DNA of 32,671 nucleotides from an uncultured Granulosicoccus sp. (GTDB taxonomy: Bacteria > Pseudomonadota > Gammaproteobacteria > Granulosicoccales > Granulosicoccaceae). This document shows, in pieces, positions 260 to 16,298 of the stretch. Below the pieces are notes generated by a model. The model had not been told where the DNA came from, did not search any database, and saw only the letters and a program-made list of their open reading frames with translations. The stretch lies in the NCBI GenBank assembly GCA_937991945.1, contig CALKLO010000052.1, positions 1-32,671 on the forward strand. The letters are read 5' to 3'. Numbering within the stretch: the stretch's first letter is position 1; every line of letters starts with the position of its first letter. A program made the position numbers and the translations under genes.

Positions 260-1387
260 TTAAGATGCAAATTCAGCTCTAAGCGCGAAACCGTGCTCAT
301 TGAGCTTAGGGACACTTGGCACCGTATCGTCTGCACGCTGACCATGACAGACGGGATTAACCGGCATATGCAATGTTTGGCCTTGCGAGTTACTGATCGT
401 TCTTTGCTGCAAAGCAGCATGGTCTAACAGCTCGGATACTGAGTTTAATCCACCAAATGCAATGGAGGCTTGCTTTAGCGATGCGCGTAATTGCTCCGTA
501 CTCTGCTGGTTGGTGATAGCCTCTATGTCTCCATCAAGCGACGCCCGATGCAGCACCCGCTGATCGTTACTTAAATAGCGATCATCTTCATACATTGCGG
601 GGCTGTCGAGCACTTCAAGGCACAAACGCTTCCATTCTCGTTCATTCTGAATAGACAACAACGTCAAGGTACCCGCCTTGTCTTTAAACGCACCGTATGG
701 GGCTATAGAGGGGTGCTTTAAACCAACACGCGAAGGAGCTTGACCATTAGCCGCATGCAGAAACGGCACCGTCATCCACTCTGAGGCAACACCAAACAAA
801 GACACCTCTACTTGTCCGCCTTTAGCGGTTATGGAGCGTCGCAACAATGCCTCGAGTATGCCTGTGTAGGCTGTAACGCCTGCACCAATATCGCATAGCG
901 AAATACCGATTCTGCCCATCTCCCCTGGGCCGCCAGAAATGCTGATAAGTCCAGACTCTGCCTGCACCAATAGGTCATAGGCTTTCATGCCTTGCATGGC
1001 CTCAGAGTCGCCATAACCCGAAATACTGCATGTCACCAGCGAGGGATAATCACGCCGAAGTCTATCTGGATCAAAACCGGCACGAGTGAGTGCTCCGGGA
1101 GCTAAATTTTGAATAAGCACATCAGCTTTACTGATCATGGCCTCTAACAACGCTGCATCAGCAGCAGCTTTAAAATCCAAAACGATGGATTCTTTGCCAT
1201 GGTTTATCCACGCAAAATAACTGCTATCACCTTTGGCAGCTGTGTCGTAGCTACGACCAAAATCGCCCCCAGCTCGTTCAATTTTGATAACCCTAGCACC
1301 GGCATCAACGAGTCGCGACGAACATAGAGGTGCTGCCACGGCCTGCTCAATGCTTATGACCGTCAAGCCTTCCAGTGGCAGCGTCAC
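260..1387 (-). CDS. CaiB/BaiF family (class III) CoA-transferase
   Basis: The 375-aa product moves CoA between carboxylic acids through a covalent aspartyl-CoA intermediate. Family marks include the N-terminal LEGLTVISIEQAVAAPLCSSRLVDAGARVIKIE block, KAYDLLVQAESGLISISG, and GISLCDIGAG. Asp166 in the last of these is the likely counterpart of the catalytic Asp169 of formyl-CoA transferase. The length is near the usual 380-430 aa. It starts at GTG 1387, only 2 nt after the soxG stop, so it is almost certainly co-translated with the sarcosine oxidase genes. The natural CoA donor and acceptor cannot be read from the sequence. The operon suggests a methylated amino acid or carnitine/betaine-type acid, which is inference only. 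Confidence 0.88.
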   Translation of the reverse strand: MTLPLEGLTVISIEQAVAAPLCSSRLVDAGARVIKIERAGGDFGRSYDTAAKGDSSYFAWINHGKESIVLDFKAAADAALLEAMISKADVLIQNLAPGALTRAGFDPDRLRRDYPSLVTCSISGYGDSEAMQGMKAYDLLVQAESGLISISGGPGEMGRIGISLCDIGAGVTAYTGILEALLRRSITAKGGQVEVSLFGVASEWMTVPFLHAANGQAPSRVGLKHPSIAPYGAFKDKAGTLTLLSIQNEREWKRLCLEVLDSPAMYEDDRYLSNDQRVLHRASLDGDIEAITNQQSTEQLRASLKQASIAFGGLNSVSELLDHAALQQRTISNSQGQTLHMPVNPVCHGQRADDTVPSVPKLNEHGFALRAEFAS

Positions 1388-1389
1388 TG

Positions 1390-2055
1390 CTAACTATCCA
1401 GTAGCTGACAGTGCATATCGTATTCCCTACCCGCACGTTGCAACCACAGCCATACGTAGTCAGCAAAACTACGACGAACCACAAGCTCGAACGCGCCATC
1501 AGACAACGCGCGCATGGTGATCTGCGACTTCGCCAATGTGGTGTTCACCACTTTACCTTCCGGGAAGTTTTCAGGGCTAACATCGTACACCGTACTTTTC
1601 TTTAAAACGTTTAGCGCATTGATACCAGACAGCGTCAATAGGCTGTATCCACCCGAGACATTCACGACAGCAATAGGACCTTTGACAGCAGAGCGTAGTG
1701 AATTTTCGAGATTGAAGGCCGATTCATTTGGGCAAGAGAGTAGCCACTCGTCCGGAGTCATCCATCGCGCACAATAGTCACCCTTCTCATCGCTCTGAAG
1801 CGTTTCAGGCAGGCTAAGACCCGTTTCTTGAAACAGCGCCTCTGACAACGCTTGCCTGGTGTCATTCGCTCGCAGCACTAACAACCCGGTCACCGCGTGC
1901 TCAGTTAATAAAACACTGGATGTAGGCTTTGCTGCGGCCTTGGCGTTTACAGCGGCTCGAACATGCTCCAACGGCGTTTGAACGGCGGTGTTCGCCGATA
2001 CCGCGGTGGCGTTTGCCACTTGGTCCATGACTACGACGTTATTGAGATCGCTCAT
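1390..2055 (-). CDS. soxG: Sarcosine oxidase gamma subunit
   Basis: This 221-aa protein is the smallest GcvT-like subunit of heterotetrameric sarcosine oxidase. In known complexes gamma packs against alpha near the tetrahydrofolate-binding domain. Visible family features are the CARWMTPDEWLLSCP block and the C-terminal MRALSDGAFELVVRRSFADYVWLWLQRAGREY segment. The first 50 or so residues are rich in Ala/Val/Thr and poorly conserved, as is common for this subunit. Its ATG overlaps the soxA stop by 4 nt (ATGA), the classic sign of translational coupling. The order B-D-A-G is the standard one for sox operons. Confidence 0.93.
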   Translation of the reverse strand: MSDLNNVVVMDQVANATAVSANTAVQTPLEHVRAAVNAKAAAKPTSSVLLTEHAVTGLLVLRANDTRQALSEALFQETGLSLPETLQSDEKGDYCARWMTPDEWLLSCPNESAFNLENSLRSAVKGPIAVVNVSGGYSLLTLSGINALNVLKKSTVYDVSPENFPEGKVVNTTLAKSQITMRALSDGAFELVVRRSFADYVWLWLQRAGREYDMHCQLLDS

Positions 2056-5000
2056 GACTTTTGCCTCTTAGAATCAGCATCCAGAAATACCGTGGAGCAA
2101 ATAGTCGCCTCGATAGTCGTGCCATCGGATAATGGGAAGTAAACCTTTTCACCCATTCGTTGCAACCCGTCCTTTATCACACCCATAGCAATACGACGAT
2201 CAAGAAACGCACTATGGTAGCTAGAAGTCACATGCCCCACCATGCTCATTGGAATGGATTGCTCAGGATCTCGAACAGCCTGTGCCCCTTCTGGTAGTAC
2301 TGCAGATGCATCCGTTGTCATTAAACCAACCAGTTGCTTACGATCTTGACGTAGACAATCGGCACGGTTCATTCCACGCTTTCCGATAAAGCTGAATGGT
2401 TTGTTGTTAGCAACAGCCCAATTATGGTTTAGATCCGGTGGTGTCATAGAACCATCCGTGTCTTGACCCACTATCACAAAGCCTTTCTCAGCACGCAATA
2501 CGTGCATAGTCTCGGTACCATAAGGGGTTAAGTTGTAATCTTTTCCCGCTTTAAACAAGGCTTTCCACACATGCAACCCGTACTGTGCCGGTACGTTAAT
2601 CTCGTACGACAGGTCACCGGTAAATGAAATACGGAAAATACGCGCAGGAATACCTGCCACATTCGCCGACCGCCAATCCATGAAACCAAAGGCTTCTGGT
2701 GATAAATCAATTTCGGTAAGGCTTGCCAACAACTTGCGGCTGTCAGGTCCGGCAATAGACATCGTGGCCCATTGATCCGTCACACTGGTGAAAAAGACTT
2801 CCATCTCAGGCCATTCGGTCTGATGGTATATCTCCAACCAAGAGAGCACTCGTGCTGCCCCACCTGACGTTGTCGTCATTAGGTAATGGTTTTCAGCTAA
2901 GCATGAGGTAACGCCATCGTCCATCACCATGCCATCTTCGCCACACATTAAGCCGTAGCGGCAACGCCCAGGCGCAAGCTTAGCCCACGCATTGGTGTAA
3001 ACACGGCCTAGAAATTCTCTGGCATCTTTACCTTGGATATCAATTTTACCCAGCGTAGAGGCATCCAAAATACCGACGTTATTGCGCGTTGCGATTTGCT
3101 CGCGCGCAATAGCCTCTTCCATGGTTTCGCCCGTTTGCGTGTAATACAACGGTCGCTTCCATTGCCCAACATTCTCAAACTCAGCACCGTTGTCTAGGTG
3201 CCATGTGTGCATGGGGGTGAAACGCTGCGGATCAAACAGTTCGTCGGTGCTTGCGCCTGCTACAACACCGAAACTGATTGGCGTGTAGTTAGGACGAAAT
3301 ACCGTTGTGCCTGTCTGAGCGATTGTCTTATTCAGACTCTTGGCAACAATGGCTAATCCGTTGATATTACCGGTCTTACCTTGATCAGTTCCGAAGCCCA
3401 GCGCGGTGTAACGCTTAACGTGCTCGATAGATTCAAAACCCTCACGCGTCGTCATCTCGATACCCGCAGCTGTAACATCATTTTGCATGTCAACAAATTG
3501 CTTGGGAGCACGACTCATTGGCTTCAGATGGGGCACCACGTATAAAGGCATCGTCTCACCCACAACATCATTACCTGACGCCGTTACAGGCAATTCCAGG
3601 TTTTCCTCTACGCTATGCCCCGAGGCCTCAACCGCAGCTAAGCCTTCGGCTGCACCTTCAGCTAAACACTCAGCCAGCGTTTGCTTACCCGTTATAGAGC
3701 CAGCACTCCAACGTTGTTCAGTTGTCGTGCCCGGTACAAATCCTAAGACGTCTTCTGACCAAACTGGACGACTACCGGTATGACACGATAGGTGCACCAC
3801 TGGACTCCAACCACCACTGGTAGCGATGGTGTCACACGGCAACCATCTTGTGTCACCGGTGACAAACGTCCCTTGCGCATTAATCGGCGCAACAACAGCT
3901 CCAGAGACGCGTTTGCGTCCTTTCGCCTCGATGATGACAGACCCTGTCAGCACACGTATGCCACGCTCAAGCGCTAGGTCTACAACACGTCCCTCTGGGG
4001 CTTTGCGAGTATCTACAATTGCAACAACGCTACGTCCAGCGTCAAGCCAATCTAAGGCGCTTTGATAGGCGCTATCGTTGTTGGTCATCAGTACTAGGCT
4101 CTCACCCGGCACTACCGCAAAACGATGTATGTAATGACTTAAGCTAGAGGCAATCATGCAGCCTGGTAGATCATTATTGGCAAATACCAATGGCCGCTCG
4201 TGTGCGCCAGTTGCCAACACAACACTGCCTGCACGAACCTTATGAAAACGGTGACGAGCGGTGCCGTCAGTTGCGGTGTCACCAAGGTGATCTGTACGCC
4301 GCTCACTGATGGTTAAGAAATTATGATCGTGATACCCATTAACAGTTGCACGCCTAAGCAAGGTGACCCGAGGATTATCGGACAGCTCGTTGATAACCGT
4401 CTCGACCCAATCCATTGGCTCTCGTGCATCAATACGCTCAGAACTGTGCAACAACGAGCCACCAAACTCAGCGCGCTCATCCGCCAGTATCACTCTGGCC
4501 CCTGCGCGAGATGCTTGCAATGCAGCCATCAAACCAGAAGGGCCTGCACCGACAACGAGTACATCAGCATGGTGATGCATGTGATCGTAACGATCGACAT
4601 CTGGCTTCGTCGGTGCACGACCTAGTCCAGCCGCTTTACGAATAAATTTTTCGTAGTTTTCCCACTGTGATTTTGGCCACATAAACGTTTTGTAGTAAAA
4701 ACCTGGAGACATCAGTGCTCCACCAAATTTACCGAACAATCCCATGATGTCGTTATCAGCGCTAGGCCAACCGTTAACGGGGCTACTCACCAAACCGTTG
4801 TACAACATTTGCTCAGTCGCTTTGATGTTCGGAATTTGAGTGGCCTCAGAGCCGCCTATTTGCAACACGGCGTTAGGCTCTTCAACTCCCGCTGTCATGA
4901 TTCCGCGCGGGCGACCGTACTTAAAACTACGACCGACAACGTCAACACCATTCGCTAACAAAGCTGACGCTAAGGTGTCGCCCTCGTAGCCCATGAGGCG

Positions 5001-5102
5001 CCTGCCATCGAACGTGAACATAAGCGGCTTGCGGCGGTTAATACGACCCCCTTCTGACAAGCGGTTACGTTGCTGCAGCTTTAGCTGCTTGGCCGACATC
5101 AT
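2052..5102 (-). CDS. soxA: Sarcosine oxidase alpha subunit
   Basis: This 1016-aa protein is the large subunit of the enzyme that oxidatively demethylates sarcosine to glycine, passing the methyl carbon to tetrahydrofolate as 5,10-methylene-THF and producing H2O2. Domains in order: a ferredoxin-like N-terminal fold (about 25-105) without the iron-sulfur cysteines, as is normal here; a dinucleotide-binding domain starting with VLVVGAGPSG (about 181-190), which binds NAD+ in known enzymes; and a GcvT/aminomethyltransferase-like C-terminal half from about residue 620. The length is typical (about 965-1010 aa). It begins with two adjacent ATG codons, and the soxD TGA lies across them (5102-5099). 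It probably acts in the cytoplasm with SoxB, SoxD and SoxG. Confidence 0.97.
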   Translation of the reverse strand: MMSAKQLKLQQRNRLSEGGRINRRKPLMFTFDGRRLMGYEGDTLASALLANGVDVVGRSFKYGRPRGIMTAGVEEPNAVLQIGGSEATQIPNIKATEQMLYNGLVSSPVNGWPSADNDIMGLFGKFGGALMSPGFYYKTFMWPKSQWENYEKFIRKAAGLGRAPTKPDVDRYDHMHHHADVLVVGAGPSGLMAALQASRAGARVILADERAEFGGSLLHSSERIDAREPMDWVETVINELSDNPRVTLLRRATVNGYHDHNFLTISERRTDHLGDTATDGTARHRFHKVRAGSVVLATGAHERPLVFANNDLPGCMIASSLSHYIHRFAVVPGESLVLMTNNDSAYQSALDWLDAGRSVVAIVDTRKAPEGRVVDLALERGIRVLTGSVIIEAKGRKRVSGAVVAPINAQGTFVTGDTRWLPCDTIATSGGWSPVVHLSCHTGSRPVWSEDVLGFVPGTTTEQRWSAGSITGKQTLAECLAEGAAEGLAAVEASGHSVEENLELPVTASGNDVVGETMPLYVVPHLKPMSRAPKQFVDMQNDVTAAGIEMTTREGFESIEHVKRYTALGFGTDQGKTGNINGLAIVAKSLNKTIAQTGTTVFRPNYTPISFGVVAGASTDELFDPQRFTPMHTWHLDNGAEFENVGQWKRPLYYTQTGETMEEAIAREQIATRNNVGILDASTLGKIDIQGKDAREFLGRVYTNAWAKLAPGRCRYGLMCGEDGMVMDDGVTSCLAENHYLMTTTSGGAARVLSWLEIYHQTEWPEMEVFFTSVTDQWATMSIAGPDSRKLLASLTEIDLSPEAFGFMDWRSANVAGIPARIFRISFTGDLSYEINVPAQYGLHVWKALFKAGKDYNLTPYGTETMHVLRAEKGFVIVGQDTDGSMTPPDLNHNWAVANNKPFSFIGKRGMNRADCLRQDRKQLVGLMTTDASAVLPEGAQAVRDPEQSIPMSMVGHVTSSYHSAFLDRRIAMGVIKDGLQRMGEKVYFPLSDGTTIEATICSTVFLDADSKRQKS

Positions 5103-5461
5103 GAGCCTTGCTCCAATTGAACTTTGGCATCACCATGAACGGCCATATTAAGCGTTGAGCCTGTTGCCGTAACCGTTGGGTTCTCGTCCAGTTCAAGCGT
5201 GTCACCGCTTTTGTATGTGGCGTATATTTCGTAGGTTTGCGTGTTGCGAGCAATATTAAAATATTTACGACAACCCGCAGCATGAACCCAAAGTTCACGA
5301 TGTACGCCGCGAGGGTTTTTTCGATAATACAAGAAGTGCCCCCACTCCTCGTCCGTCATAGAATCAGGATCGAGGGGTCGGGGTAAATGCGCCTGTCCGG
5401 CAGCATGAAACTCTTCTTCTTCGCGGTGCTCACCACAGTAGGGGCAATGAATAAGGAACAT
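5099..5461 (-). CDS. soxD: Sarcosine oxidase delta subunit (zinc-binding)
   Basis: SoxD is the small zinc-binding subunit that stabilises the sarcosine oxidase complex. I chose the ATG at 5461 (120 aa). The frame also opens at a TTG at 5488, but family members start with a short M-hydrophobic-HCPYCGE sequence, which fits the ATG. With this start the zinc ligands are Cys6, Cys9, His60 and Cys64, almost the same positions as in characterised enzymes. Neither start has a strong Shine-Dalgarno sequence. The gene lies 53 nt after soxB and overlaps soxA by 4 nt. Confidence 0.93.
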   Translation of the reverse strand: MFLIHCPYCGEHREEEEFHAAGQAHLPRPLDPDSMTDEEWGHFLYYRKNPRGVHRELWVHAAGCRKYFNIARNTQTYEIYATYKSGDTLELDENPTVTATGSTLNMAVHGDAKVQLEQGS

Positions 5462-5514
5462 GGCAAAGTCTGTCTGGTTATCGTGCAAATTATGTAAGTG
5501 TGGAAAGCCGCAAT

Positions 5515-6768
5515 CTAATGCGCTACGCCTGCAGCACCATGCTCATCGATGAGTGAGCCATCCTGAAAGCGCCAATAATTGAAAGCTTTACTTAATTGAT
5601 TAGGCTCACCGGTTGCCAACATGTCAGCAAACACATGACCGGAACCTGGCGTTGCCTTAAAACCACCGGTACCCCAACCACAATTGAAAAACAGATTCTC
5701 GACAGGCGTCTTGGAAATGATCGGACACGCATCAGGTGTGGTATCGACGATGCCTCCCCACTGACGGTTCATGTGGACACGCGACACAACCGGGAACAAC
5801 TCGATGATGGCTTGCATGGTGTGTTCGATAACCGGGAATGAACCACGTTGCCCATAACCCACATAGCCATCAATACCCGCTCCGATAACTAAATCACCTT
5901 TGTCCGACTGAGACATATATCCATGCACCGCGTTAGACATCACTACCGTGTCAAGAATCGGCTTAATAGGCTCTGACACATACGCTTGTAACGGATGAGA
6001 TTCAATAGGCAGCTCAAAACCTGCGTAGCCTGCCAAGACACCTGAGTTGCCAGCGGTTACACACCCAATTCGACCTGCCTTAATGACACCGTGTTGAGCG
6101 GTGACAACACCTGTGGCAGCACCGTCTTCAATCACTATGTCGGTGACTTCAGTTTGTTGGATGATATCGACGCCATAACTGTCAGCTCCGCGGGCATATC
6201 CCCACGCCACAGCATCATGACGAGCAACACCTGCGCGTGGCTGCCATGAGGCTCCCAAAATGGGATACCGCGTTGAACCAGAGCAATCCATGATGGGGAC
6301 GATTTCCTGGCATTGTTGAGCGTCGAGCACTTCCCCATCAATACCGTTCAATCGATTAGCGTTTACGCGTCGATTAATATCGCGCATATCTTGTAGGTTG
6401 TGTCCAAGGTTCATAACGCCACGTTGCGAGAACATGACGTTGTAGTTCAGGTCTTGCGACAAACCTTCCCACAACTGCATGGCATGCTCGTACAAATGGG
6501 CCGCTTCATCCCACAGGTAGTTTGAACGCACGATGGTTGTGTTACGGCCAGTATTGCCACCGCCTATCCAGCCTTTCTCAATAACCGCGATATTGATCTT
6601 ATCGTGCAGTTTGGCTAGGTAATAGGCCGTTGCAAGACCATGCCCACCGCCGCCCACTATGATCACGTCATAGTGCTTCTTGGGCGTCGGGTTGCGCCAC
6701 ATGCGCTGCCAATGCTCCTGATGCTTAAATGCCTGTTTAATCAGGCCAAATCCGGAAAAGCGATTCAT
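5515..6768 (-). CDS. soxB: Sarcosine oxidase beta subunit (FAD/FMN flavoprotein)
   Basis: The 417-aa beta subunit carries the sarcosine-oxidising flavin site. The FAD-binding Rossmann motif is DVIIVGGGGHG (34-44), followed by GNTGRNTTIVRSNYLW. The ARHDAVAWGYARGA segment contains His184, the likely counterpart of the histidine that binds FMN covalently in heterotetrameric sarcosine oxidases. The C-terminal NCGWGTGGFKATPGSGHVFADML closes the flavin fold. The length agrees with the family (about 405-417 aa). It is the first gene of the minus-strand operon, with a 144-nt divergent promoter region shared with the regulator at 6913. The operon provides no glyA, folD or purU, so glycine and C1 units must be handled by genes elsewhere. 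Confidence 0.97.
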   Translation of the reverse strand: MNRFSGFGLIKQAFKHQEHWQRMWRNPTPKKHYDVIIVGGGGHGLATAYYLAKLHDKINIAVIEKGWIGGGNTGRNTTIVRSNYLWDEAAHLYEHAMQLWEGLSQDLNYNVMFSQRGVMNLGHNLQDMRDINRRVNANRLNGIDGEVLDAQQCQEIVPIMDCSGSTRYPILGASWQPRAGVARHDAVAWGYARGADSYGVDIIQQTEVTDIVIEDGAATGVVTAQHGVIKAGRIGCVTAGNSGVLAGYAGFELPIESHPLQAYVSEPIKPILDTVVMSNAVHGYMSQSDKGDLVIGAGIDGYVGYGQRGSFPVIEHTMQAIIELFPVVSRVHMNRQWGGIVDTTPDACPIISKTPVENLFFNCGWGTGGFKATPGSGHVFADMLATGEPNQLSKAFNYWRFQDGSLIDEHGAAGVAH

Positions 6769-6912: not shown

Positions 6913-7959
6913 ATGAGCGAAATCACAGACCCTAATTTACACGCAACATCCCCCACTTTCACAGTGGTTTTCCTGCTGCAGCCCCATTTTAGCCTGCTTG
7001 CGTTTACCGCCGCAGCAGATGCTCTAACCACGGCCAATCTGGTTATCGGCAAGAAGCATTTCAAATTTCAGACTCTTTCACTGGGTGACGAGCAAGTTAT
7101 TTGTGATTTGGGTATTCCTATTGGCAGTGACTACACTATCGCGCCGCTATCAGAGCTCAGCACCACACGAACTCTGCGAGAAAACTACGAGCACGTTCTC
7201 AGTCATGCCGACTTACTCATCGTATGCGGTGGCTATCGATGCAACCTCGATGAGCAATCCCGCTTTACCGCACTGCTAACGTCTGCTCACGAGCGGAACA
7301 TCATGCTTGGTGGTTTATGGAATGGAATTTTGAGCGTTGCCGCAGCGGGCCTTATGGACGGGTTTGCCGCAGCGCTACACCCGGACAACCAAACACTGGC
7401 GGTTGAACGATACCCGCACATGTTTGTTCGTCAGGACACGGTTGTCATGGATAGAAAAAGAGTATCGGCTGCCGGGCCCAACAGCGCATTCGATTTAATG
7501 CTGCTGCTGATTCAGCGACACGATACGTTGGAGACAGTCCAAGCAATTCGAAGAATTCTTAAAGCCGATACCGGCTCAGCTGACAATGTGGAATCAGCGT
7601 TACAGCGTGACGATGAAAGTCGCTTTCCAGCAAACCTGCAGAACGCCTTACAACTGATGCGCAGTAATCTAGATGAGCCTGTCGATAAACAAGTGCTTGC
7701 TCAACACATGAATATGTCTACACGGGCAATGGAGCGTATTTTTCGCCGATACCTTCACACCAGCCCTGCAAGACATTACATGCAGCTGCGCCTAAACAGC
7801 GCCTACGAATTATTGCAACAAACTGATCAGAGTATTAGCGAAGTCAGTGATGCCTGTGGATTTGTTAGTAGCGCACATTTCAGTCGCACTTTTAGTCAGC
7901 GTTATGGGTTTGCACCAAGCGCCCTGAGAAAATTAGTGAGTCGTGTTTTAGACGTTTAA
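6913..7959 (+). CDS. GlxA-family transcriptional regulator (DJ-1/PfpI-like plus AraC HTH)
   Basis: This 348-aa regulator joins an N-terminal class I glutamine-amidotransferase/DJ-1-like domain (about 14-180) to a C-terminal AraC double helix-turn-helix (about 235-340). The second HTH is clear in ISEVSDACGFVSSAHFSRTFSQRYGFAPS. The position where DJ-1 enzymes carry a nucleophilic Cys reads LGGLWNGILSVAAAGLMDG, so this domain is a sensor and not an enzyme. The same architecture occurs in GbdR (glycine betaine/dimethylglycine) and SouR (sarcosine) of Pseudomonas, which activate sox genes. Its divergent position next to soxB makes a sarcosine- or betaine-responsive activator the best guess. The effector is not shown by sequence. 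It starts at ATG 6913, and its stop overlaps the convergent astacin stop. Confidence 0.88.
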   Translation: MSEITDPNLHATSPTFTVVFLLQPHFSLLAFTAAADALTTANLVIGKKHFKFQTLSLGDEQVICDLGIPIGSDYTIAPLSELSTTRTLRENYEHVLSHADLLIVCGGYRCNLDEQSRFTALLTSAHERNIMLGGLWNGILSVAAAGLMDGFAAALHPDNQTLAVERYPHMFVRQDTVVMDRKRVSAAGPNSAFDLMLLLIQRHDTLETVQAIRRILKADTGSADNVESALQRDDESRFPANLQNALQLMRSNLDEPVDKQVLAQHMNMSTRAMERIFRRYLHTSPARHYMQLRLNSAYELLQQTDQSISEVSDACGFVSSAHFSRTFSQRYGFAPSALRKLVSRVLDV

Positions 7960-9227
7960 CCGCAACGACAAGCACGATAACGTCGTATGACGAACAACAG
8001 AAGCAGCGACCAGACAGCCGAAGGTGCAGCAGCTAGTGTAGGCGATGTCTCATCATCTTGAGGCTGTGGTGCCGCAGCCATGACTGGCGCAGTCTCTATA
8101 ACCTCTCTAGAGGTCACCGATACGCTTGTATTGTTAAACGCATTGCTATCTGGGGTTTTAGATCGAACGGCAGCTTCAAACGAACTAATTGCCTCACTCG
8201 GTTCTAAATCTAACGTTAAGACACTCGTGCTACTACCCTGCAATCTGTCCAAGCTACAGACTAGTGCGTTTAGGTTATCTTTACTGCAACTCCATCCGTT
8301 GTCACTATATGCGCGCACCGTCGATGCATCGATAGTGAGTCGCACTTCTACCGTGTTGGCTCCTTGATCGTCGTTATTGGCCACGTATATAGTCGCTTCG
8401 CGACTATCCGTAAATGCCTGAACGCGGGCAATGACTGATAAGTCCGCCGCGTATAGTTCGGCAATCGTATCCAAGTCGCCCTGACTAGGTGCCAATCGCT
8501 GCCCAATAGCATCTGCCGCACCGTAAATAGGCGTAATGGTTGGCTGGCCTGCGGAGGAAAAATTATACTGTCCGTAGTGCATGATAGAACCGTAGTCATA
8601 ATCACCCAGCACGGTTGCACCGGCACTAGCGATATCAAAATTATGTGTTTTACCGACGCTTATATTGTCCCAATGGATATCAATATACTGGTCACGATCT
8701 GGACGGGTATGTTCATGCTCTAACCCCAACACGTGTCCTATTTCATGCATGACACTGCCTTCCGTGCAATTCGTGCCCACCCATACATCCTGAACACCAC
8801 CTTGGCGGCCAACCCAAGATGCACAGCCTGCATTATTTTTAAAATAGACAGAATCTACAACCGAACGCTGCAATTTTTCCACATCGGCCACCTTCATGAA
8901 CGTAATACCGCTAACGGCATTCCAATGTGCAATGGCGGCATTTATGGCCTTTAACGAATGCTGTGGAAACGTGGGATCAAGGCTATATGGCACTACCCCA
9001 TCCACCCATAAATTTCTGGCATCGGGTGATCCGATAGATCGACGGCCTGTGGGAGCTGCCCGCAAAATGTCCCCTTCAAACAGGGAGACGTCTGCATTCA
9101 TCTCGGCCAGCACTGCATCTGTATTGGCCTCGCCTGTCAATGGCAACACAACGCACAGCACAGCAAAACTCATTGCATGGCAAACAATGTTACTTGGCCG
9201 TTTATGGTTGACTACGTAAGACAGCAA
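7956..9227 (-). CDS. Secreted astacin-family (M12A) zinc metalloprotease with C-terminal membrane tail
   Basis: This 423-aa protein has the full astacin zinc signature, HEIGHVLGLEHEHTRPDRD, with His161, Glu162, His165 and His171. The Met-turn SIMHY follows at 214-218, where Tyr218 is the usual fifth ligand. The N-terminus is a signal peptide with a long n-region and a hydrophobic core up to about TGEA (31-34). A short propeptide-like stretch precedes the catalytic domain at about residue 74. After residue 245 comes a beta-rich domain of unknown role, an acidic/Ala/Pro linker, then WSLLLLFVI and RRYRACRCG at the end. This tail resembles sortase-type C-terminal signals but lacks their glycines. 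The TTG start at 9227 is supported by GGAG 8 nt upstream, and the next ATG (9173) would remove the basic n-region. The target protein is unknown. Confidence 0.87.
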   Translation of the reverse strand: MLSYVVNHKRPSNIVCHAMSFAVLCVVLPLTGEANTDAVLAEMNADVSLFEGDILRAAPTGRRSIGSPDARNLWVDGVVPYSLDPTFPQHSLKAINAAIAHWNAVSGITFMKVADVEKLQRSVVDSVYFKNNAGCASWVGRQGGVQDVWVGTNCTEGSVMHEIGHVLGLEHEHTRPDRDQYIDIHWDNISVGKTHNFDIASAGATVLGDYDYGSIMHYGQYNFSSAGQPTITPIYGAADAIGQRLAPSQGDLDTIAELYAADLSVIARVQAFTDSREATIYVANNDDQGANTVEVRLTIDASTVRAYSDNGWSCSKDNLNALVCSLDRLQGSSTSVLTLDLEPSEAISSFEAAVRSKTPDSNAFNNTSVSVTSREVIETAPVMAAAPQPQDDETSPTLAAAPSAVWSLLLLFVIRRYRACRCG

Positions 9228-13945: not shown

Positions 13946-15771
13946 TGAATCTGCTATTACGTGTTTTTAGTCTAGATCTGCGCTCCATTGCTTTATTCAG
14001 AGTCTTGCTCGGGATCTTGCTGTTAACAGATCTGATCTTGCGCAGTTTTGACCTTACAACCTTTTACACTGACGACGGCATACTTCCGCGCAGCTACCTG
14101 CTCGATCTGAGCAATCAATGGTATTGGTCGTTACACAGCGCTGGCGGTGAACTTTGGTGGCAGATACTGCTCTTTACGATAGCGGGTCTTGCAGCCCTAG
14201 CCCTGATTTTTGGCTATCGTAGTCGCATTGCCGCAGGCGTATCTTTCGTACTGCTTGCCTCATTGCTCAATAGAAACGGGCTGATCCTACAAGGTGGTGA
14301 CCAACTGTTGGTCATCATGTGCTTTTGGAGTTTGTTCTTGCCACTGGGTGCCCGCTATGCAATCGATGCAGCGCTGACACCGCAGCTCAAAGACAATCCA
14401 AACTCAGCTGCAACCATAACCGAGAAAGAACAGCCGTATTTTTCCGTCGCAACTGTTGCGATCGTATTCCAAATTCTCTACTTGTATTTTTTCACAGCCA
14501 TCATGAAAACTGGTGATGCTTGGCTGGTCCGGTTTGATGCCGCCTACTATGCGGTCAGCTTGCAGCAATTTGCCACGCCAATTGGGCAATGGATGACGCA
14601 ATACCCGGAGTTTCTTAGCGTAGCCACTCGCTTCGTCATCGTTGTTGAATACCTGGGCCCACTCTTAATTCTTTGCCCATTGTTCTGGCCTTGGTTACGC
14701 ATAACCGGTGTGTTATTGCTTGCCAGCCTGCATGCAGCTTTTCTCTTAATGCTGCATATCGGTTTGTTCCCGCTTATCGATTTTATGGCCCTCAGCCTGT
14801 TGTTACCGGCAGCTGTTTGGAGCATAGGCACTCAGCGCCCGACAGCGTCCAGAAAGAGCTCTCGTATCGATGCAATAATCATTTACTACGATGTAGATTG
14901 CGGATTTTGCTTAAAAATGTGCCTGCTGCTGCGGTTATTTTTATTGAGTAAATCTGTGCAGATACTCCCCGTTCAGCAGCATCCAGATATGTTCGCCATT
15001 ATGCAAGAGCACAACTCTTGGGTTGTCACCGATGCCGATGGCAACACGTACATCCACTGGCATGCCATGGTGTTTTTATTCTCTGCGCGTTGGCCGTTTA
15101 AGCCCATCGCCTGGCTGATGTCCATTTCACCACTACTAGCTTTAGGAAATCAGGTCTATGCCTGGGTAGCCACTAACCGCGGCATTATGGGTCAGTTTTC
15201 CAGCCGCTGGTTTGCTTACCGTGCAGTCTCAGTAAAACCAACCTTAGTGGGTTCAGTTGTGGCGGGTTTCATGTTCTATGTGGTCACCAGCTACAACGTA
15301 CATAGTCTGCCTCAAATAAAACAAAACATACCTGATCATGTTTATGCCGTTGCAAAAACTGCACGCATAGATCAACGATGGGATATGTTCGCACCGTACC
15401 CACTGACTAACTCCATGTACATGCAGATACCGGGTAAGTTGCGAAATGGAACGACCGTGAACTTGTACCCTTTAACATCAGCAGACGAAACATGGGAACC
15501 CCCTGAACGCTACCATTCATTGTTTGAAAACTATCGCTGGCGAAAACTAGTTGGACGCATCGATGGCCACAAAAACAATGCCGTAAGGCGTGCCTTTGGG
15601 AGCCATGTGTGTAAAGCCTGGAATGATCAACCACGACCCACGAACACGCAGTTAGCAACGTTTGAAATAAACATCGTCAAACATCGAACCAATACCGAGA
15701 ACAAGCCCAAAAAGGAAACTCGGCGCCGCGTATGGCGACATTGGTGCTATCCAGAATTCGCGGACAAATGA
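13945..15771 (+). CDS. HTTM-domain membrane protein fused to a DCC thiol-disulfide oxidoreductase-like domain
   Basis: This 608-aa protein begins with an HTTM domain (horizontally transferred transmembrane domain, related to vitamin K-dependent gamma-carboxylase). Marks are LDLRSIALFRVLLGILLLTDLILR, YTDDGILPR, then several hydrophobic helices up to about residue 295. A DUF393/DCC-type domain follows with YYDVDCGFCLKMC, where Cys319 and Cys322 form the CxxC pair. The last 170 residues include one more hydrophobic segment (about 432-450) and a soluble part with QRWDMFAPYPL. HTTM-DCC fusions exist in other bacteria, but their reaction is not established and gamma-carboxylation should not be assumed. 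ATG 13945 overlaps the previous stop (TGATG). A TTG at 13942 is an alternative that adds one residue. Confidence 0.85.
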   Translation: MNLLLRVFSLDLRSIALFRVLLGILLLTDLILRSFDLTTFYTDDGILPRSYLLDLSNQWYWSLHSAGGELWWQILLFTIAGLAALALIFGYRSRIAAGVSFVLLASLLNRNGLILQGGDQLLVIMCFWSLFLPLGARYAIDAALTPQLKDNPNSAATITEKEQPYFSVATVAIVFQILYLYFFTAIMKTGDAWLVRFDAAYYAVSLQQFATPIGQWMTQYPEFLSVATRFVIVVEYLGPLLILCPLFWPWLRITGVLLLASLHAAFLLMLHIGLFPLIDFMALSLLLPAAVWSIGTQRPTASRKSSRIDAIIIYYDVDCGFCLKMCLLLRLFLLSKSVQILPVQQHPDMFAIMQEHNSWVVTDADGNTYIHWHAMVFLFSARWPFKPIAWLMSISPLLALGNQVYAWVATNRGIMGQFSSRWFAYRAVSVKPTLVGSVVAGFMFYVVTSYNVHSLPQIKQNIPDHVYAVAKTARIDQRWDMFAPYPLTNSMYMQIPGKLRNGTTVNLYPLTSADETWEPPERYHSLFENYRWRKLVGRIDGHKNNAVRRAFGSHVCKAWNDQPRPTNTQLATFEINIVKHRTNTENKPKKETRRRVWRHWCYPEFADK

Positions 15772-15800
15772 GTGTTGGCGTTACGCGTACAAGCGAGCTC

Positions 15801-16298
15801 TTAACTCACCATATACGTTGCATTGCCCGTCGCAATTAACACGCCTTCGTCATTGCTTAATTTCATAGTGCAAACAGCCACGCGACGGCCGAGGCGAACA
15901 ACCGTAGATTCAGCTGTAAACTGCCGACCCAAACCTTGACGTAAATAATCTACGCGCAAATCAATGGTGGATAAAGCCGCAAAGCGTTGCATGATGTCAT
16001 CGCAGCTTTCACTCTTATGAAAGTTAGCTATTTCCATCATCACAGCCAATCCGCCAGCCACATCCAACACCGACGATATTACGCCGCCATGGAGCCGTCC
16101 GTACAGGTAATGACCGACTAGCTCTGGCCGCATATCAAACGTTATTAATACCGGCTGTGGCTCTAGCTGAGATATTTTAAACCCGAGAAATTCATTGTAT
16201 GAAATTTTGTGTTCAAACAACGTCGTAATCGCGTCCACAAGTAGCTGCTGCTGCTCGCTTGAACGCGGCACGCTCGATGGTGGGTTGTCTGATGTCAC
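15801..16298 (-). CDS. yigI: Medium/long-chain acyl-CoA thioesterase, YigI family (hotdog fold)
   Basis: This 165-aa protein belongs to the PaaI-like hotdog thioesterases and matches E. coli YigI along its length. The GRLHGGVISSVLDVAGGLAVM segment holds the active-site helix. The C-terminal half (STIDLRVDYLRQGLGRQF through GNATYMVS) is close to YigI as I remember it. It hydrolyses acyl-CoA thioesters in the cytoplasm, and the physiological substrate is not fixed. The start is GTG 16298 with only a weak GAGCG upstream. It follows the RND permease on the same strand after an 81-nt gap holding a hairpin, so it may be transcribed separately. It converges on the HTTM gene. Confidence 0.87.
   Translation of the reverse strand: MTSDNPPSSVPRSSEQQQLLVDAITTLFEHKISYNEFLGFKISQLEPQPVLITFDMRPELVGHYLYGRLHGGVISSVLDVAGGLAVMMEIANFHKSESCDDIMQRFAALSTIDLRVDYLRQGLGRQFTAESTVVRLGRRVAVCTMKLSNDEGVLIATGNATYMVS

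Follow-up and report, generated by a model that had tools for sequence, protein, structure and literature searches.

In an uncultured Granulosicoccus, a class III (CaiB/BaiF) CoA-transferase gene forms the end of a sarcosine oxidase (sox) operon, and we confirm that this coupling to soxG is real and not confined to a single genome. On balance we think it probable that a branched C5-dicarboxylate CoA-transferase has been appended to the operon at its 3′ end, where it would be co-expressed with the sox genes and would feed a dehydrogenase encoded elsewhere in the genome. The window, by which we mean the whole 32,671-nucleotide stretch analysed here (contig CALKLO010000052.1; genome G000), carries the operon on the minus strand within its first 7 kb, in the reading order soxB, soxD, soxA, soxG, CaiB/BaiF gene. 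The features, from low to high coordinate, are as follows.

260..1387, minus strand: class III (CaiB/BaiF) CoA-transferase, 375 aa, GTG start, final gene of the sox operon (PF02515)
1388..1389, minus strand: spacer of 2 nt between soxG and the CoA-transferase gene (read from the sequence)
1390..2055, minus strand: soxG, sarcosine oxidase gamma subunit (PF04268, 135.6 bits; TIGR01375, 112.6 bits, cut-off 143.95)
2052..5102, minus strand: soxA, sarcosine oxidase alpha subunit (TIGR01372, 1418.8 bits, cut-off 1164; matches solved chain 2gag_A)
5099..5488, minus strand: soxD, sarcosine oxidase delta subunit (TIGR01374, 122.6 bits, cut-off 116.5)
5515..6768, minus strand: soxB, sarcosine oxidase beta subunit (TIGR01373, 688.8 bits, cut-off 529.45; solved chain 2gag_B)
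6913..7959, plus strand: divergent GbdR-like AraC-family regulator (GbdR model, 203.9 bits, below its cut-off of 480; HTH_18, 74.2 bits)

SoxA, SoxB and SoxD pass the NCBIfam cut-offs for their subunits, and residues 18-417 of SoxB match the beta chain of the solved heterotetrameric enzyme (2gag_B) at 558.6 bits; SoxG is above its Pfam cut-off of 21 bits and below that of NCBIfam. The GbdR-like protein is presumed to regulate the operon. The first-pass annotation, which set the start of the CaiB/BaiF gene 2 nt past the soxG stop, was exact. It had also remarked that the usual sox partners are absent, and this holds as far as the scans reach: PurU has no homolog in the window (tblastn E ≤ 1e-15) and no match in the genome (E ≤ 1e-40), and neither GlyA nor FolD is among the 16 window proteins scanned. 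As a side observation, an astacin-type metalloprotease (window 7956-9227; L066:14981-16279) has diverged fast: our genome and G015 share just 59% identity in it, against 92-97% for soxB and for the two genes next past the metalloprotease.

Across 27 Granulosicoccus genomes, the CoA-transferase was found in 13 (E ≤ 1e-95) and lies directly after soxG in four, with gaps of 2 nt in our genome and in G015 and of 5 nt in G005 and G016. The next gene in G015 encodes a GGDEF/EAL protein and converges on the CoA-transferase gene, which is therefore the end of the operon there. The remaining nine carriers have the gene away from sox, adjoining an acyl-CoA dehydrogenase gene in G001 and G013 and in varied places in the other seven, so the earlier description of the transferase as 'locked' into the operon is too strong: it is sox-linked in just four of its 13 carriers. 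This survey left out the sox locus of G018, and in G004, G006, G020 and G022 the contig stops at the sox locus or close to it; in G020 about 300 readable nt past soxG hold no transferase.

Beyond the genus the linkage was not seen. None of 40 sox loci from other Pseudomonadota (16-kb stretches, HMM E ≤ 1e-8) has a CaiB-like ORF; we picked these loci by hand, a single one for each genome chosen, among the higher-scoring soxA places of a 398-genome sample of the phylum, where 95 genomes, our own included, have such a place. Over that whole sample, with coordinates compared by eye, no transferase match (E ≤ 1e-75) outside our own genome falls within 10 kb of soxA (E ≤ 1e-150). A scan of named genomes gave seven transferase loci, and the single one with sox linkage was the G015 locus again. 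In high-GC genomes the ORF caller chose some antisense ORFs, and counts there come from tblastn or HMM matches. The survey of related operons that the first pass proposed finds the linkage in four of 27 Granulosicoccus genomes and in none of the 40 loci elsewhere. Our search of open-access papers, including those on Granulosicoccus with sarcosine and on sarcosine oxidase with branched dicarboxylates, found no description of such a linkage; a SAR202 paper that covers both sarcosine oxidase and CaiB deals with them in separate sections (PMC5395668).

The identity of the CoA-transferase is clear at the level of the family. It matches PF02515 over its full length (residues 5-365; 286.8 bits, cut-off 23.3), and its Asp166 aligns with Asp169 of E. 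coli Frc, which we take to be the catalytic residue of class III CoA-transferases; the Asp is present in all 64 aligned rows. Seven NCBIfam models matched, none at its cut-off. The best score was that of CoA:oxalate CoA-transferase (NF008511; 223.2 bits against 522), and three further named functions likewise scored below their cut-offs: succinate--glutarate CoA-transferase (NF052585; 186.5 against 750), succinyl-CoA:mesaconate CoA-transferase (NF041294; 160.9 against 700) and formyl-CoA transferase Frc (TIGR03253; 143.1 against 504.2). A tree places the protein in a 58-row group with relatives from dicarboxylate gene clusters (split 94) and puts E. coli CaiB, YfdE and Frc, together with three paralogs from our own genome, outside it; this tree came from a short search, with many inner forks open and long outgroup branches, and with the same caveat the protein shares the group with the transferases of L262, L266 and L269 without being nested among them. 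The sox-linked transferases form a separate branch, and their substrate may therefore have shifted.

The gene neighbourhoods of relatives point in the same direction as the tree. Outside our own genome the phylum sample contains 68 transferase places; we read 30 of the best 31, which are 46-52% identical to the window protein, ten of them (L165, L167, L171-L174 and L176-L179) with only about 1.5 kb of flank; five of the 38 places outside this count were read separately. An acyl-CoA dehydrogenase gene is directly adjacent in 19 of the 30 loci, a count that rises to 21 if a distance of about 3 kb is allowed, the encoded enzymes being 63-79% identical to a dehydrogenase of our own genome, and nine loci have no such gene. 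A FAS1-type hydratase is nearby in 15 of the 30 and a CitE-like lyase in four. Among six loci of named genomes the dehydrogenase is adjacent in two, one from a Hyphomicrobiales MAG and one from Pseudohalocynthiibacter. Three gammaproteobacterial genomes (G112, G116 and G361) have lyase, transferase, MmgE/PrpD, dehydrogenase and hydratase genes in a row, the MmgE/PrpD gene being 57-59% identical (tblastn) to a copy beside the transferase of G022. The same set of genes (ccl, ict, mmgE, mcd, ich) makes up a cluster that is assigned to the use of itaconate and methylsuccinate (PMC12290011), a match made by content and not by sequence against PA0882.

Five plasmid loci, opened from 153 matching records, extend the pattern. 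On Ensifer and Gemmobacter plasmids the transferase gene sits between those for a methylaspartate ammonia-lyase, a mesaconate-making enzyme, and a CoA-ester lyase; on a Caballeronia plasmid it is followed by a MaoC-type hydratase gene, with a CoA-ester lyase further along; on a Sphingopyxis plasmid it follows an acyl-CoA dehydrogenase gene, and a distant MmgE/PrpD relative lies about 3 kb beyond. The Sulfitobacter copy is part of a larger CoA cluster without the dicarboxylate pattern. Judged by their gene content, the clusters of the relatives appear to serve itaconate, methylsuccinate, mesaconate and citramalate, and the best reading of tree and context together is that the window protein is a putative CoA-transferase of the branched C5-dicarboxylate type. 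It groups with a family whose neighbouring genes belong to itaconate/methylsuccinate and methylaspartate catabolism and not to that of carnitine or betaine, and so falls largely with transferases of a known pathway unrelated to sarcosine. The first-pass suggestion of a CoA-linked substrate upstream of sarcosine accordingly finds no support among the relatives' partners. Of its second suggestion, that of a side route serving a related acid, an altered version remains: the acid in question is probably a branched dicarboxylate with no relation to sarcosine. Separately, one transferase of this family (locus L110) has a selenium-binding-protein-like gene nearby (14575-15975); a link to DMSP or methanethiol was considered for it and rejected, at 122 bits against a cut-off of 650 for the methanethiol oxidase model.

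Our own genome encodes a candidate partner in its acyl-CoA dehydrogenase (G000:C37:5705-6865), on a contig other than that of the window. Of 36 genomes of the bacterial family, 19 have the transferase, and 17 of these also have this dehydrogenase (in G032 and G035 as fragments only), as do four of the 17 genomes that lack the transferase (Fisher p 1e-4, uncorrected for relatedness). The usual FAS1-type hydratase and CitE-like lyase have no match in our genome (E ≤ 1e-25), and the standard route would therefore be incomplete there. A crotonase encoded on the same contig (C37:1220-2011) could possibly substitute for the missing step; it occurs in 13 of those 19 transferase carriers and in three of the other 17 genomes. 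As a constant partner it was rejected, its neighbours not being conserved and no HMG-CoA-lyase homolog being found in 14 neighbourhoods (tblastn E ≤ 1e-12), and we keep it as a weak lead.

The crotonase also enters into a different reading, one that takes up the first-pass idea of a substrate upstream of sarcosine: the transferase would activate an acid of the betaine type, such as carnitine or gamma-butyrobetaine, for breakdown by way of glycine betaine to sarcosine. A shared contig with the acyl-CoA dehydrogenase would suit such a route, as would the GbdR-like regulator beside the operon and, in G005, G016 and G004, a BKACE-family (beta-keto acid cleavage) gene divergent to soxB in the position of the window's regulator (L068:8639-9472, L069:14335-15177 and L096:7485-8363). 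The BKACE family includes an enzyme of a carnitine pathway. We nevertheless regard this reading as improbable: the L-carnitine CoA-transferase model (NF002914) scores 63.9 bits against a cut-off of 413, the tree excludes E. coli CaiB from the family, the relatives are located in dicarboxylate clusters, and the BKACE-family gene reaches no named model at its cut-off. A further proposal accepts the dicarboxylates and makes the enzyme a salvager of mesaconate or methylsuccinate that escapes in free form from the ethylmalonyl-CoA pathway during growth on C2 and C1 units derived from sarcosine. Substrates of the mesaconate and methylsuccinate type are indeed intermediates of that pathway, and they are the apparent substrates of this transferase family. 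The key enzyme, crotonyl-CoA reductase, has no match (E ≤ 1e-100 or over cut-off) in any of 57 draft-genome relatives, our own included, in a search that found it in one of 14 control genomes (Caulobacter), and, barring a non-homologous carboxylase in its place, we give this proposal almost no credence.

The position behind soxG is variable. In G013 the ATG of a FAS1-type hydratase gene (PF13452; L093:2292-3266) lies 2 nt past the soxG stop; G001 has a related gene (L263:3-590; 59% identity over the on-contig part) about 190 nt behind soxG. Both genomes have their transferase-dehydrogenase pair elsewhere. The G001 gap itself contains a short tandem-repeat-like stretch. The stretch after soxG has thus accommodated, in different species, two different steps of one CoA module, and the second module enzyme seen there in these two genomes suggests a metabolic connection for which co-regulation alone would not account. 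The cases are too few for a probability, and the slot also takes other genes: its contents include the hydratase, convergent genes, others, and a GyrI/SRPBCC protein (G002, G008, G014 and G021). A fused SRPBCC and GyrI-like protein (L068:995-1951 and seven relatives) is seen after soxG or slightly further along, and in G005 and G016 it comes after the transferase. In the 40 sox stretches of other Pseudomonadota, PurU is present in 16 and directly after soxG in 14 (one HMM-confirmed). It has no match in 23 of the 27 Granulosicoccus genomes, our own included (E ≤ 1e-40; several of the genomes are incomplete); most of these 23 do have a sox locus, so sarcosine's C1 units may leave the folate pool by a different route. 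Our genome has a second soxBDAG locus (L105, G000:C24:1-16000), with a SoxA 43% identical to the window's and a GbdR-like regulator of its own (246.7 bits, cut-off 480), in which a formate--tetrahydrofolate ligase gene begins at about the end of soxG.

A variable slot is also what would be expected of a neutral passenger, a gene rearranged behind soxG without harm and expressed with sox to no purpose, and the junction's presence in just four of 27 genomes fits that account as well. This is the main rival to our explanation, and we consider it unlikely, although a good deal less so than the betaine reading. Between our genome and G015, identity is 97% for SoxB, 90% for SoxA, 67% for SoxG and 74% for CaiB, with a synonymous distance beyond what the method can estimate; the CaiB genes of G005 and G016 differ by a dN of 0.10 and a dS of 1.52. 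The transferase gene thus evolves under purifying selection, and the junction is long-lasting. That the junction was kept in G015 despite this divergence, and is also found in G005 and G016, points to more than chance. All four sox-linked transferases fall into a single clade (support 82/80 in one CaiB tree; SH-aLRT 89 in a wider one), and in the SoxA tree the G000/G015 and G005/G016 pairs fall in different clades, which forces at least two changes. A single joining followed by several losses and a spread of the transferase between lineages would both fit. The 16-row alignment left out the G004 copy, which has a stop inside the frame, and four distant rows (L082-L085); the G004 transferase entered both trees as a shortened ORF of 352 aa. 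The neutral account must further accommodate the hydratase of the same CoA module behind soxG in two other genomes.

Under our preferred explanation, the CoA-transferase would have been joined to the operon's 3′ end within Granulosicoccus and would be read on the same transcript as the sox genes. It would move CoA, probably from succinyl-CoA, through an acyl anhydride at Asp166 onto a small dicarboxylate, and the resulting CoA ester would pass to the acyl-CoA dehydrogenase encoded on contig C37. The enzyme would then stand outside sarcosine chemistry, the coupling serving to place two catabolic capacities under one control. A more speculative variant, to which we assign a low probability, is that the operon twice gained steps of a branched-dicarboxylate pathway (the transferase in four genomes, the hydratase in two) because a single natural compound, such as an N-methylglycine linked to a C4-C5 diacid, yields a branched dicarboxylate together with sarcosine (or some other N-methyl amino acid), and the cell burns both halves at once. 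Granulosicoccus is a marine, algae-associated genus, and the independent arrival of the hydratase behind soxG hints that these marine bacteria may meet sarcosine and branched dicarboxylates together. A CoA step that seemed out of place in the breakdown of sarcosine can in this way be recast as a borrowed branched-dicarboxylate enzyme with a concrete set of candidate substrates.

Several known systems resemble parts of this arrangement. The window protein falls into the 58-row tree group that also includes, without its nesting among them, the transferases of clusters with the same content as that of the itaconate/methylsuccinate CoA-transferase Ict (P. aeruginosa PA0882 and Cupriavidus necator), and in the Ict-type clusters of G112, G116 and G361 the dehydrogenase is 62-64% identical to ours. 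The likeness is one of gene content: their transferases are 41-44% identical to the window's, which forms a separate branch and sits in a sox operon, and our genome has the dehydrogenase alone, without hydratase or lyase homologs at the threshold given above. The methylaspartate-cluster transferases of Ensifer and Gemmobacter, of the same family, are closer in sequence (51% and 50%); their genes lie between those of the ammonia-lyase and the CoA-ester lyase, and their putative function comes from annotation. E. coli YfdE, an acetyl-CoA:oxalate CoA-transferase, is the best solved relative by sequence (4hl6) and has the aligned Asp, but the window protein's 223 bits are below the cut-off of 522 and YfdE lies outside its tree group. 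The operon itself most resembles the gammaproteobacterial soxBDAG-purU arrangement, with the same four subunits and SoxA proteins 61-65% identical in the best gammaproteobacterial matches; where PurU follows soxG in those 14 loci, the window, from a genome without PurU, has the CoA-transferase.
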